Origin: a virus
Length of the DNA stretch: 40,416 nt
Strand: one strand, 5' to 3'
Virus record (IMG/VR): IMGVR_UViG_3300037635_001210
Location: 1-40,416 of that record
Shown here: positions 12,221-37,131 of the stretch, piece after piece
Position numbering within the stretch: the stretch's first letter is position 1
Layout: each line of letters begins with the position of its first letter
The notes under the pieces: model-generated
Seen by the model: the letters and a program-made list of their open reading frames with translations, nothing else
Told to the model about the DNA's origin: nothing
Databases searched by the model: none
Made by a program: the position numbers and the translations under genes

Positions 12221-13553
12221 TCAGAATGCAGAAGGTGCAGTAGCACCGACATACAGCTCAACAGCTGCAGCAGGATTGAGGTAATCAGCACCCATTGCAA
12301 GACGGCCAAGGATAACGTCGCCCTGATAAATCACAGAGACATCACCACTGGTGACTTGTACTTGAGGACCGATTGCTTCAACACAAGCGGCGGCTTCACG
12401 TTGGAAGATAAGACCACAAGATGTAGCAGCAACTTCTGCGGCTGTGCCGTAGTCATTGTTGATACCAGTAGTAGCACCTGAAGCATCTTCCAGTGCAGGA
12501 CCGATGAAATCACCAGTATTGCCAGGAGAGGTTTGACCAGATGTACCGCCGTACTTGGTGCCGTACTTGCCAAGGAACGGAATGTTCATTGACTTGTAGA
12601 TGTGGATACCAGCGATCTCGATGATGCCGTTACCGCCTTGCAGAGCAGAGCCCTGAGCGTCACGATTCACAAGACCATTGGAACCAACAGCTTGGATCAG
12701 TTCGTAGTACTGACGTGGGTTCAGGACAGCGCAACGGCCATCGCTAGAAACACCCTTCTCATCCATTGCAGCAGCTGCGTCATAGAAAGCAGCAATCAAT
12801 GCGCTAGAAGAGAAAGCATCAGATTCGTTAGTAGTAGCACCAACACGGATCTGAGTACCGCCGGGCTCTTTGAAGTTAGTTGCACTAACTGGAGATGCTG
12901 CACGAGCACCGCGAGCAATAGCGCGGAAGATCAAGCGGTCATATTTTTCTGCGAGGGCGTAGCCGATTTTGCGGCTGATCTCCGAGCGCAGATCGTAATG
13001 CTTATTTTCTACTATTTCTAGTAGGATCGGACTATATCTTCACTAAAGTGTTGGATGCTAATGATGTATTACATGGGACGCTTCCCAAACCATCTAGTCT
13101 CTGAACCTTCCGCTTAAGCGTAAGCGGCTCGGCTGCTGATTGCCATATCCAAACGGACTTAGGGTTCCAGCAATTCTTCCAATTGTTTATACTCGGTCCC
13201 ATTACTTAAGATAGAGTTTCGTCTAAATCGTAGACGAAGGCTGAACTAATAAGAAGGTCGTCAACCGTGACGGTCTTCTCTGCCACTGGAGGCGCACCGT
13301 CGGAGTTACCGAGGATTGCATTTCCAGGGGTGTGATACTCAGCCGTTGTACGACCGGTATAGATGAACTGCAAAGACTTGCCGTTCTTAAGTGTACGCTT
13401 CATCACAAGATCGCGAGCGATTGCATTGTGCTGGAAGCCTTTGAACATTTCGCCACTGAACAACTTAAGGTACAGTGCGCGCTTATCTCCGGAGAGATTA
13501 GATTGACCTAGATTAACCTGGCTGGTTGTTAGGTCTGAAGACTGATGTGCCAT
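12221..13553 (-). CDS. Major capsid protein, gp10-like, two exons joined across a group I intron
   Basis: Exon 1 is 13553-13209 (115 codons from ATG) and exon 2 is 13000-12221 (259 codons plus stop), giving 374 aa after splicing, in phase 0. Exon 1 ends in DLDETLS and exon 2 continues HYDLRSEISRKIGYALAEKYDRL... (written in short: HYDLRSEISRK, GYALAEKYD), restoring a continuous T7-type capsid sequence. Without splicing the first intron codon is TAA, giving a useless 115-aa fragment. There is no clear Shine-Dalgarno before the ATG; instead a terminator-like hairpin and U run end 3 nt upstream. The order scaffold, capsid, terminator, tail tube A matches T7. The protein forms the icosahedral shell. 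Confidence 0.93.
13001..13208 (-). ncRNA. Group I self-splicing intron in the capsid gene (208 nt, no ORF)
   Basis: All four conserved core elements are visible on the minus strand in order: P GAATTGCTGGAA (13176-13165), Q AATCAGCAGCC (13141-13131), R GTTCAGAGACTA (13106-13095) and S AAGATATAGTCC (13040-13029). R and S pair through GACTA/TAGTC to make P7. The exon 1 end CTCTATCT pairs with the internal guide GGACCGAG (13199-13192) with a U.G wobble at the 5' splice site (CTC/GAG, two mismatches, UCU/GGA). The intron ends in G (13001), and CTACTA-GAAA-TAGTAG (13024-13009) makes a P9-like hairpin. Removal fuses the two capsid halves in frame. There is no homing endonuclease inside. Confidence 0.94.
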
Positions 13554-13874
13554 TTTAAAAAAGAGAGTTAATTATGTACGACTCTCAAAGATCTTTGAGT
13601 AATATTCAATTGTATTGTGGTCTATCCCACCGTCTAGACGACTAAGGGTATCCCTCGTAAGGGGCCGAAGCCAATAGCAATGGAGTCCTACTCTGAGGTG
13701 CTCCAAAGCCAGACCTTAGGTTTTTCCAGTCCTAAGTCCGTAACCGATCCTTGGAAGATTACAAGGAAAAATCAGATATTATTGAGCCTCTGAGGGGGCT
13801 CTTTAAACTGCCAGTAGAGATAATGTTTTACTTCTATGAAGATACATAGAGACAAAACAAAAACGACTGTCCAC
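13554..13874 (-). ncRNA. Long structured leader upstream of the capsid gene, no ORF
   Basis: This 321-nt non-coding gap lies between a small gene (13875) and the capsid ATG. Read on the minus strand it is packed with hairpins: GAGCC/GGCTC (13801-13784), TCCTTG/CAAGGA (13767-13748), GACTTAGG/CCTAAGGTC with one bulge (13738-13712), GGAG..CCT/AGG..CTCC (13704-13682), and GGC-TTCG-GCC (13672-13663). None of the group I core elements is present, so it is not a second intron of that type. It may be a leader RNA that stabilises or regulates capsid mRNA, or may include a phage promoter that I cannot recognise. Confidence 0.6.
13557..13599 (-). promoter_or_regulatory. Attenuator-like pair of mutually exclusive hairpins at the capsid start
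   Basis: Hairpin A is the perfect 16-nt inverted repeat CTCAAAGATCTTTGAG (13599-13584). Hairpin B is GAGAGT...ACTCTC (13586-13581 with 13568-13563), followed by six T and then the capsid ATG 3 nt further on. The two share the GAG at 13586-13584, so they cannot both form fully. Hairpin B plus the U run looks like an intrinsic terminator placed directly against the start codon, where a ribosome binding site would be expected. Function is inferred from structure only. Confidence 0.55.
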
Positions 13875-21731: not shown

Positions 21732-23078
21732 TCAGTGAGTCTCTGCCCACGTTTTTCCAATGACTGCTTCTGCTTCGATTGGGACTCTAAGTTTGTAATA
21801 TTCTCCAGCTGCGAGGCTGCTAAATACCAAGGATGTTGAAAGGTCAGCTGCGTGTTCAGGGGAACATTCGTATTGCAATTCGTCATGTATAAATGCGAGC
21901 TGTGATGCACACAGCCCTGTTTGTTTAATAGTTTCGTTTGTAATAACCATCCACCGCTTTGCGACGCAGGCTGCGGATGATTGCAAAAGCATGTTTAATG
22001 CTTTGTGTGGGCTGTCTACTTTGATGTGACGCCCATCTATCGATCTGATAAAGCCTTCCGCACTCGCCTTTTTAATTGCCTCAAGTAATTCCGAAAGTCC
22101 ATCAATTGCAGAGACAAATGCTTCTCTAATTTCTTTGCCTTTCTTTTTAGCCTGAGTTTCATTTAATAAAGGGTCGTAGGACATGCCAATTTTCTGATTG
22201 CCCGCTCCATAGATGAAGGCGTAGGAAATTGTTTTGATTTGTTTTCTAGAAACTCCGACCTTATCTGCATTGACTTGATGAATGTCTCCATTGAGTAAGG
22301 TGTCTCTAAAGTTGTTACTCCATCGTCCAAGGTAATGCGCGAGCAGCCTAAATTCGATAGCACTAAGATCACTCCCAACCATAACTTGACCTGGCGTTGC
22401 TTTAAATAACTTTCTAAATTCATCATCACTTTTACACTGCGCTAAATTTGGATTACGATGAGCACATCTATGCGTTACTGTGGCAACAGAACAGTGATGA
22501 TGTATACGCTTAGCAGTCGTACATAGCTTGAGCCATGCGTTGGTGCCTTCGGAGATCATCCCCAAGCTCTTCGTAATATCGAGACATTTCAGAAACTCCA
22601 AAGCAATCTGCGGTCCACCTGAGGCAGCCATCTCCTTCAGTACAATCTCGTCGATAATTGGCTTCCCAGTAGCTGTCATCTGGGTTGGTTTCCAGTTGTG
22701 GTGTTCCTTTAATATCCATGCAATATGGTCTCTTGAGGTGGGATTCGTTTCTTTTAAACGTGTGAATGGAGCGTCTTTGACATAGCCTGTGGTCCGATTA
22801 TCTCGTTTAGGAGTAAATACTGGTCCGGCAACGAAAGGATACCTGTGACGTAATAGTTGATAAGTTTCTTCAAGTTGTTTTCTGAGAGACGATGCAAGTT
22901 CCCATGCAGCGCGTTCATCAAAGTACCATCCATGTAGTTGTTGTGTAGTTAATAATTGAGCAACTTGGTGCTCTAGTTTGACCCACTCAGGGATTTGTGG
23001 AAGTGGTCGCATAGTTTGACTGTGACGTTTACATCTTGGGCGCAGTAAGTCTCCATTTCTGGTGACCATTCCTGCCAA
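21732..23078 (-). CDS. DNA polymerase family A, polymerase domain part (separate frame)
   Basis: Contains the family A polymerase motifs: A SDLSAIEFRLLAHYLG, B KQIKTISYAFIYGAG (finger helix), C AFIHDELQYE. It also has T7 pol-like PTSRDHIAWIL and SPHKALNMLLQSSAA. The frame opens at a TTG at 23078 but useful sequence starts near 22995 (PEWVKLEHQVAQLL), which continues the exonuclease-domain protein in the -1 frame; an ATG at 23012 is another possible start. There is no good ribosome binding site for either. So this is either a split polymerase, a frameshifted product, or a one-base indel in a CCC run. Confidence 0.88.
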   Translation of the reverse strand: MAGMVTRNGDLLRPRCKRHSQTMRPLPQIPEWVKLEHQVAQLLTTQQLHGWYFDERAAWELASSLRKQLEETYQLLRHRYPFVAGPVFTPKRDNRTTGYVKDAPFTRLKETNPTSRDHIAWILKEHHNWKPTQMTATGKPIIDEIVLKEMAASGGPQIALEFLKCLDITKSLGMISEGTNAWLKLCTTAKRIHHHCSVATVTHRCAHRNPNLAQCKSDDEFRKLFKATPGQVMVGSDLSAIEFRLLAHYLGRWSNNFRDTLLNGDIHQVNADKVGVSRKQIKTISYAFIYGAGNQKIGMSYDPLLNETQAKKKGKEIREAFVSAIDGLSELLEAIKKASAEGFIRSIDGRHIKVDSPHKALNMLLQSSAACVAKRWMVITNETIKQTGLCASQLAFIHDELQYECSPEHAADLSTSLVFSSLAAGEYYKLRVPIEAEAVIGKTWAETH

Positions 23079-23488
23079 TCTGTGCTTTTACCAAACTCAC
23101 CTTTGTATTCTTTTAGCCTGTAGCCATATGCCTCCAACGAATGGCGTCCACGAAGATGCAATGGCATGAGTGGGTTATCTAGCTTCCTATCTATCTCTGC
23201 CATATCTGTGTGATAGAGCCGAGAAAGAAGCAGTGTGTCCAATACAAAAGCTTTTGGTTCAAACCAGGGATAAAGCTTTCTGATTACAGGAATGTCGTAG
23301 CCAATAAGGTTGTGACCTACTAGGACATCAGCATCTTCTAGTCTTTGAATACCCCTACTAATAGGTTCTTGATTACCCCTGTCGTTGTAAATAACTGTGG
23401 TGTCAGCCTCGCTGTCATAAATAACAAGGCAGTGGATTTTGGTAACATCATCAAGTAGACCGTCAGTCTCTAGATCGAATACGAGCAT
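22973..23488 (-). CDS. DNA polymerase 3'-5' exonuclease domain (171 aa, split from polymerase domain)
   Basis: N-terminal MLVFDLETDGLLDDVTKIHC closely follows T7 DNA polymerase (MIVSDIEANAL). Proofreading motifs are Exo I FDLETDG, Exo II HNLIGYDIPV, Exo III YCAQDV. After HFHKSL the frame runs 5 residues to a stop at 22973, while the rest of the polymerase is in the -1 frame. Reading TCC then CCT in TCCCTGAG would join it to PEWVKLEHQ. The domain proofreads replication; in T7 it is part of a single 704-aa enzyme. Confidence 0.87.
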   Translation of the reverse strand: MLVFDLETDGLLDDVTKIHCLVIYDSEADTTVIYNDRGNQEPISRGIQRLEDADVLVGHNLIGYDIPVIRKLYPWFEPKAFVLDTLLLSRLYHTDMAEIDRKLDNPLMPLHLRGRHSLEAYGYRLKEYKGEFGKSTDWQEWSPEMETYCAQDVNVTVKLCDHFHKSLSGSN

Positions 23489-35986: not shown

Positions 35987-36802
35987 TTAGTACATCATTA
36001 AAGTAGCTGGACGTGGTATTGATTGATCTTTAATAGATCTTTTAGCTTGCGGTATAAACTCTTTAATAACACTTTTGCCTGTAATACCTTCGAATACGCT
36101 GTCAGCAGTCATAGCTGCTTGAATATATTGACCAACTACAGGAATAAAACGTGCAGCACCTTTTTCAATTGCAAATTTACCAAGCCTTTTTACAGGATCA
36201 GTTGGGTCAAATTGGACATGTTTGCCAAATTTACCACCAGCATTTCTTGGCTGCCAAGTAGTTTCTCCTTTACGGGTGCCATGCCCGACCATTTCACCAT
36301 CTTTTTTGGTGTGAGCATTGAAGGCACCGTTTGTACTACGCTTATAGGCAGTATTTCGTGAGTTGGACCTTTTACCAGTCCTTAGCGAGCGTTTAAAATC
36401 CTTAATATCTTCCAAAGGTGAGAAAGTATATCTATTGTCTACACCAGTTGCTTTATTACGAGAAGTGGGCAACTCATTAATCAATTGATTAACGGTAGCG
36501 TTTGATCCTAACGTTTGCAGCTTAGTATTAGGCACATTTGGTCTACTAAAACTACCATTAGATGTAAACGAGACTTCATGACCTTGAGGACCAGGAATCA
36601 TATGACCCTGAATATTTGTGACAGGATTACGAATGGATAATGTTCCACCAATATTCTTAGGTTGATTAATCCGAAGACTTTCTAGAATCCTATTTGCTTC
36701 TATTGCGTCACGAGTTGGCATTTGGTCAGGAGGACGCATAAGGCTCATTAAAAGAGCCGCACGTTCCTCTGCTGACATGTTGTCTATGTTATTTTTACCC
36801 AT
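35987..36802 (-). CDS. Unknown protein between HNH endonuclease and terminase (271 aa)
   Basis: ATG at 36802 overlaps the HNH stop (TGATG). Basic, low-complexity middle (RSLRTGKRSNSRNTAYKRS, HTKKDGEMVGHGTRKGE), then a hydrophobic C-terminal segment AARFIPVVGQYIQAAMTADS. It could be a minor virion or membrane protein; T7 genes 18.5-19.5 near this place are spanins and small proteins, but no spanin features are clear. No family recognised. Confidence 0.7.
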   Translation of the reverse strand: MGKNNIDNMSAEERAALLMSLMRPPDQMPTRDAIEANRILESLRINQPKNIGGTLSIRNPVTNIQGHMIPGPQGHEVSFTSNGSFSRPNVPNTKLQTLGSNATVNQLINELPTSRNKATGVDNRYTFSPLEDIKDFKRSLRTGKRSNSRNTAYKRSTNGAFNAHTKKDGEMVGHGTRKGETTWQPRNAGGKFGKHVQFDPTDPVKRLGKFAIEKGAARFIPVVGQYIQAAMTADSVFEGITGKSVIKEFIPQAKRSIKDQSIPRPATLMMY

Positions 36803-37131
36803 CAAGAAATATGTGAGAGAATTAGTATTTCACGTAGTTGATTTTCACCAAAGGTTTGTCTCATCCAACTGAGCCAATGTTTACTTCCTTTATCCTGATT
36901 ACATTGAGTACACGCTGGTACAACATTCGATGAAATGTCTTCGCCGCCCTTACTGCGAGGTAGCACGTGATCCAAAGTGAGTTGATGTTGTTCATAAGTT
37001 TGTCCGCAATAAACACATGTGCATCCAAAATGCTCTTTGATGCTGCGCCTCCATAGGCGCTTGGCTTCAGGAGATGTCATGGCTATGAGGTTGTAGAGGT
37101 AGTGTTCAGGAGATGGAAGTAGAGGGGTCAT
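36802..37131 (-). CDS. HNH endonuclease (109 aa)
   Basis: Zinc-binding C39-x-x-C42 (CVYCG), catalytic LDHVLPRSKGG (D54, H55), then N69, and PAC-x-x-CN with C74 and C77. This is a full free-standing HNH domain of the McrA/phage type. It sits among packaging genes; HNH nucleases near terminase are often needed for cos/DNA cleavage in packaging, but it could equally be a homing endonuclease. ATG overlaps the upstream stop (ATGA). Confidence 0.9.
   Translation of the reverse strand: MTPLLPSPEHYLYNLIAMTSPEAKRLWRRSIKEHFGCTCVYCGQTYEQHQLTLDHVLPRSKGGEDISSNVVPACTQCNQDKGSKHWLSWMRQTFGENQLREILILSHIS

Follow-up and report, generated by a model that had tools for sequence, protein, structure and literature searches.

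A subgroup IA2 group I intron predicted in the major capsid gene of a T7-like cyanophage, with related introns at six sites of the same gene

What interrupts the major capsid protein gene in the virus record IMGVR_UViG_3300037635_001210 (40,416 nucleotides, analysed at full length and referred to here as the window), and can an intact capsid protein be produced from it? An open reading frame running from 13553 to 13209 on the minus strand is closed by a UAA codon and a second open frame resumes 208 nt downstream, at 13000 (Table 1). We report that the arrangement is very probably due to a minimal IA2 group I intron, which would splice the two exons in frame into an intact capsid protein and which appears to be a nearly neutral mobile element. 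This view is based on the anatomy of the locus, covariation among related introns, the colinearity of the exons, the sporadic distribution of the intron and a pattern of horizontal transfer.

Table 1. Predicted features of the interrupted capsid gene and its intron (positions in the window).
Feature	Position	Strand	Remarks
Exon 1, major capsid protein gene	13209..13553	-	115 aa, C-terminus DETLS; phrog_27239 positions 1-115
Exon 2, major capsid protein gene	12221..13000	-	259 aa, N-terminus HYDLRSEIS; phrog_267 to position 331, phrog_27239 from 116
Group I (IA2) intron, 208 nt, no ORF	13001..13208	-	RF00028, covariation; UAA in frame at start, terminal G at 13001
P1 5' exon strand ACUCUAUCU	13209..13217	-	U.G at splice site; 2x2 mismatch in window copy
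P1 intron guide strand GGACCGAGU	13191..13199	-	pairs with ACUCUAUCU of exon 1
P10 intron strand GUAAUG	13200..13205	-	just before guide; pairs with exon 2
P10 3' exon strand CAUUAC	12995..13000	-	perfect 6-bp P10 with GUAAUG
P3 5' strand UUGGA	13178..13182	-	3' strand 13055-13051
P4 5' strand UUGCUG	13168..13173	-	3' strand 13138-13133
P6a hairpin CCGCUUA-CGCU-UAAGCGG	13110..13127	-	compensatory change in 4/7 pairs
P7 5' strand GACUA (R element)	13095..13099	-	3' strand UAGUC 13034-13030 (S element); RF00028 and covariation
P7.1 and P7.2 stems GAUG/CAUC, UGGGA/UCCCA, linker UGUAAUA	13063..13094	-	compensatory change in 4/9 pairs
P8 hairpin CACU-UU-AGUG	13041..13050	-	covariation
P9 hairpin CUACUA-GAAA-UAGUAG	13009..13024	-	RF00028 and covariation

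Both parts of the gene were matched by PHROG profiles for phage major head proteins, and since the two halves abut in phrog_27239 (exon 1 at 1-115, exon 2 at 116-163) no residue is gained or lost at the joint. Fusion of the exons is in frame and gives a major capsid protein of 374 aa, in agreement with the original prediction, made from the sequence alone, of a capsid gene whose halves fuse in phase 0. The fused protein shows 83.4% amino acid identity to that of S-TIP37 and 80.9% to that of P-SSP7. Capsid proteins of intronless relatives are colinear with the fused exons and align across the joint, the uninterrupted genes running straight through the DETLS/HYDL position where such an alignment had been proposed, and the two exons are jointly 93-95% identical to these proteins with no frameshift. 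The window also encodes a T7-type RNA polymerase, portal, scaffold, tail tube and internal virion proteins, terminase and DNA polymerase; judged by this gene set and by the capsid identities the source virus is, as had been claimed, a T7-like cyanophage related to Synechococcus and Prochlorococcus podoviruses. The DNA polymerase is seemingly split at 21732-23488 (minus strand) into two overlapping frames, an exonuclease-like one of 171 aa (as judged by eye) and a polymerase frame of 448 aa, an arrangement that could reflect a natural split, a frameshift or a sequencing error.

A search of the window with the Rfam models returned a single match above gathering score, that of the group I intron model RF00028 (13253-13008, 73.5 bits with a gathering score of 50, E=6e-17, model positions 1-253 of 253), and the P, Q, R and S core elements are present, which confirms the predicted intron type. 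A terminal G, a U at position -1 and a P3/P7 pseudoknot are features of group I introns; here the last base of exon 1 is U and the last base of the intron is G. The predicted boundaries, 13208 and 13001, proved exact, with exon 1 ending in DETLS, the intron running from UAA to G and exon 2 starting at HYDL. The first intron codon is indeed a stop (UAA at 13208), and there is no homing endonuclease inside the intron, as judged by the lack of any ORF of at least 60 aa within 13001-13208. The claim of a P1 helix with U.G at the splice site held with a minor correction: the U.G is found in 13/13 sequences compared, and in the window copy the helix comprises 7/9 pairs, with two mismatched positions (A.C and U.C) in its middle; the P1 of the L009 intron has one mismatch. 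The 3' splice site is fixed by the perfect P10, and among the same-site introns compared all have a terminal G and a P10 of 5-7 pairs with compensatory exon-intron changes. Together, the P1 and P10 pairings and the reading frame leave a single plausible pair of splice sites, giving the predicted spliced junction ...GAAACTCTATCT/CATTACGATCTG and the unspliced exon-intron boundary ...TATCT/TAAGTAATGG. The perfect 6-bp P10 was not among the features listed in the original prediction.

The proposed structure (P1, P3-P9, P7.1, P7.2 and P10) was tested for covariation using 12 distinct introns from the same site. In these, 97.6% of the proposed cells are paired and 19/60 pairs have compensatory changes on both sides. 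The number of cells changed on both sides is 58 compared to 18.2 in shuffles, with 0/500 shuffles as high, a test that is inflated by the kinship of the sequences and in which the structure was drawn on one of them. With the partners slid as a control, pairing drops to 31-49% with double changes in 0-4 pairs, and given these controls and the per-pair tables the sequence-based case for covariation is still strong. Moreover, the introns match their own exons: for P1 we counted 97 pairs versus a mean of 80 with swapped exons (maximum 94 in 20,000) and for P10 80 pairs versus 76.2 (fraction 5e-5), where the swaps ignore the tree and the kinship caveat holds, and where exon codons differ silently (CAU/CAC for His, UAC/UAU for Tyr) the intron shows matching changes. 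The minimum-energy fold is only mildly better than shuffles (z -1.78), as can be expected, because the ribozyme is pseudoknotted and folding energy is uninformative here. Subgroup IA2 is recognised by P7.1 and P7.2 stems linked by a GUA sequence and by the absence of P2 (PMC3428280); since both stems are present with a GUA-containing linker and there is no P2, we assign the intron to IA2.

Other explanations for the interrupted gene were weighed against this one. Precise interruption of a coding gene would also be seen with an insertion sequence, an intein or a group II intron, and we regard any of these as having next to no chance of being correct: they are contradicted by the RF00028 match and by the group I features listed above, an intein is excluded by the stop as first codon, and 208 nt is too short for an insertion sequence with a transposase. 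That the intron has decayed and lost its splicing activity, leaving a broken capsid gene, or that it reflects an assembly error is very improbable. The two P1 mismatches and the metagenomic origin of the contig would fit such a reading, but all core helices are intact in the window copy and the exons retain their high identity to intronless relatives; in addition, two more assemblies of the same population (99.8% identity over 12.5-14.3 kb) carry an identical intron, which is thus no assembly artefact.

It is also improbable, if less so, that the intron is a regulatory switch, with splicing sensing a host condition (light, GTP, magnesium or translation) and setting capsid output. The in-frame stop, which leaves the capsid wholly dependent on splicing and which has counterparts in the 34 capsid introns examined, from five sites, would suit a switch, and so would the light-dependent splicing of the psbA intron of S-PM2d, a distant sequence relative (PMC5931967). 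However, group I introns often have early in-frame stops, which have been explained by ribosome exclusion (PMC3984707), no Rfam ligand-binding element was matched inside the intron, and its presence is sporadic: capsid is made from intronless genes in the nearest relatives and in the cultured isolates that were compared, and relatives carry an intron at differing sites or nowhere. For the suggestion in the original prediction that splicing couples capsid yield to the conditions of infection, this analysis gave no evidence.

Under the preferred model, that of a spliced and nearly neutral IA2 intron, the intron would fold in the transcript and exogenous guanosine would attack the 5' splice site marked by the P1 U.G. 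The freed exon 1 would subsequently attack after the terminal G, which P10 would hold beside exon 2, and ligation of the exons in frame would give the intact capsid protein; with a stop as the first intron codon, an unspliced message would yield no more than a 115-aa fragment. As no other gene of the virus is probably expressed as strongly as that of the capsid, splicing must be very efficient. The in-frame stop may also keep ribosomes away from the ribozyme core. Among the 34 capsid introns the stop in the exon-1 frame comes early, and before the ribozyme core in the 32/34 for which a core start could be placed; since early stops are frequent in the other frames too, these data are therefore consistent with ribosome exclusion without proving it. 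We infer further that the intron could spread among related phages at the same site, via recombination or an endonuclease supplied from elsewhere, and that this highly conserved gene would tolerate it as a mobile element that is nearly neutral.

To find further introns at the same site, contigs were scanned for the S element followed by exon codons HY[D/E]. This pattern identified introns of 194-217 nt in 17 other viral contigs, and a relaxed pattern gave no additional contigs. Including this site (aa 115), introns were found at six positions in the capsid gene, the others being aa 35 (14 contigs), 72/73 (14 contigs), 342/343 (21 contigs; counts from pattern scans, several contigs being cut by their ends), 107/108 (a single case, L283) and ~212 (a single case, L315). 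Confirmation with Rfam was based on loci submitted from the aa 35, 72/73 and 342/343 groups, and the introns at aa 107/108 and 212 were identified by conserved core sequence only. One or more capsid introns are present in approximately 60 ocean virus contigs, of which eight carry two (L013, L018, L020, L045, L188, L283, L287 and L315). Across the sites the introns are ~194-235 nt, lack an ORF and share the same core. Among the 80 loci nearest to exon 2 of the window, a set chosen irrespective of introns and including some truncated loci, five have a capsid intron, so that the frequency in close relatives is a few percent as a rough lower estimate. None was present in the 60 best capsid matches in a cultured-phage collection (a few fosmid records included), and a scan of a genome-contig collection gave no capsid match. 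Pattern matches without a capsid gene were rejected as chance, except in L003 and L036, where two and three group I introns, respectively, lie close together in an unidentified phage gene region. The capsid genes of P-SSP2 and P-SSP3 (L274, L275) were rejected as intron-split, each being a single ORF of 437 aa with an in-frame coding insertion of ~60 aa.

In a tree of 40 distinct intron cores, the introns at sites 115, 73 and 342 each form their own clade (support 0.998, 0.905 and 0.897, respectively), the first uniting the window copy with the same-site introns of other uncultured T7-like cyanophages (L002-L045). Those at other sites are mostly separate lineages, some genes have two introns, and the site 35 introns are not monophyletic. 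Since the introns mostly group by site, within-site spread rather than hopping between sites seems to be the usual event. The introns also resemble one another more closely than the exons around them do: those of L005 and L021 are identical in exon stretches that are 77-93% identical, and the window shares 97% of its intron with L009 versus about 75-77% of the exon DNA, although such identity alone is no proof of transfer as the ribozyme may evolve slower than silent codon positions. A stronger argument for transfer is that the intron is missing from the closest capsid relatives of the window (87-89% nt and 93-95% aa identity). Taken together, the grouping by site, the similarity of the introns and the intronless nearest relatives suggest that the intron appears to move horizontally without an endonuclease of its own. 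Just upstream of the site, 3/6 informative positions agree with L009 against the intronless sisters, versus 13/136 elsewhere (Fisher p 0.02), a weak signal of co-conversion that is only suggestive.

All other capsid introns found are likewise too short for an endonuclease. Searches of 24 records revealed GIY-YIG proteins in none and HNH proteins in four, all contigs of ~38 kb or more, and no nuclease was recognised between the capsid and tail tube genes, where an ORF in P-SSP2 and P-SSP3 gave no Pfam match. The HNH copy of the window lies 24 kb away from the capsid gene and looks resident rather than an intron endonuclease because the other three tested contigs of ~38 kb or more also carry HNH; it is a small protein encoded near the large terminase gene (36802-37131, minus strand). 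As no endonuclease was found, any route of mobility is a guess. By analogy with the free-standing F-CphI, which adjoins psbA in S-PM2 (PMC5931967) whereas no counterpart was found beside the window capsid gene, a trans-acting nuclease is possible, as is plain recombination. We also consider, as a rather doubtful extension, that site-specific endonucleases contend over the capsid gene of ocean T7-like cyanophages: nucleases that are free-standing or encoded by competitors would cut conserved capsid sites, the short ORF-less IA2 introns at six sites would ride on this cutting and shield their carriers against co-infecting phages, and splicing would hide the insertion from the virion.

The original prediction knew of no described capsid intron in this phage group. 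This stands for T7-like cyanophages, for which no report was found in the open literature (subscription papers and preprints were mostly outside the search), but not for phages at large. In the mycobacteriophage LittleE, splicing of a major capsid gene intron was demonstrated by RT-PCR and N-terminal sequencing of the protein; that intron is, like ours, of group I type, but it is ~819 bp, has an endonuclease ORF, resides in a Mycobacterium siphovirus and is classified only as "most likely" group I (PMC3706429). A capsid-gene group I intron in Tuc2009 is cited in the same paper (PMC3706429). The DNA polymerase intron of the T7-like cyanophage Pf-WMP3, which self-splices in vitro and splices in vivo, shares subgroup IA2, the lack of P2 and the P7.1 and P7.2 stems with the window intron, and differs in its gene, in encoding the HNH endonuclease I-PfoP3I and in the freshwater host Phormidium (PMC3428280). 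The psbA intron of S-PM2 and the related S-SRM01 intron are also group I introns in cyanophage genes (67% and 72.5% nt identity, respectively, over 82-83% of the window intron), but reside in T4-like myoviruses and in a photosynthesis gene. Hence, as both capsid group I introns (PMC3706429) and an IA2 intron in a T7-like cyanophage (PMC3428280) have been published, the kind of element is not new; most likely new is the distribution over six sites within one virion gene. These six sites, the genes with two introns and the lack of introns in the cultured relatives compared constitute a natural experiment on the persistence and spread of ORF-less introns among phages. Moreover, because gene callers split such genes, intron-bearing lineages may be overlooked or appear truncated when cyanophages are surveyed by their capsid.

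Finally, two observations concern the region upstream of the capsid gene. In the relatives L013, L020, L282, L287, L290, L294, L298, L314 and L316, glutamine-II riboswitch matches precede the capsid gene by a few hundred nt or more, and Rfam detected none in the window. The window has a strongly conserved leader at 13585-13680 (minus strand; GGCUUCGGCC..GAGGGAUACCCUUAGUCGUCUAGACGGUGGGAUAGACCACA) that contains a covarying stem and gave no Rfam match. Its 21-nt core is exact in 108/159 fetched loci. Cultured cyanopodoviruses, P-SSP7 and S-RIP2 among them, have related, unannotated sequence ahead of their capsid genes, and we consider this leader a candidate cis-acting RNA.
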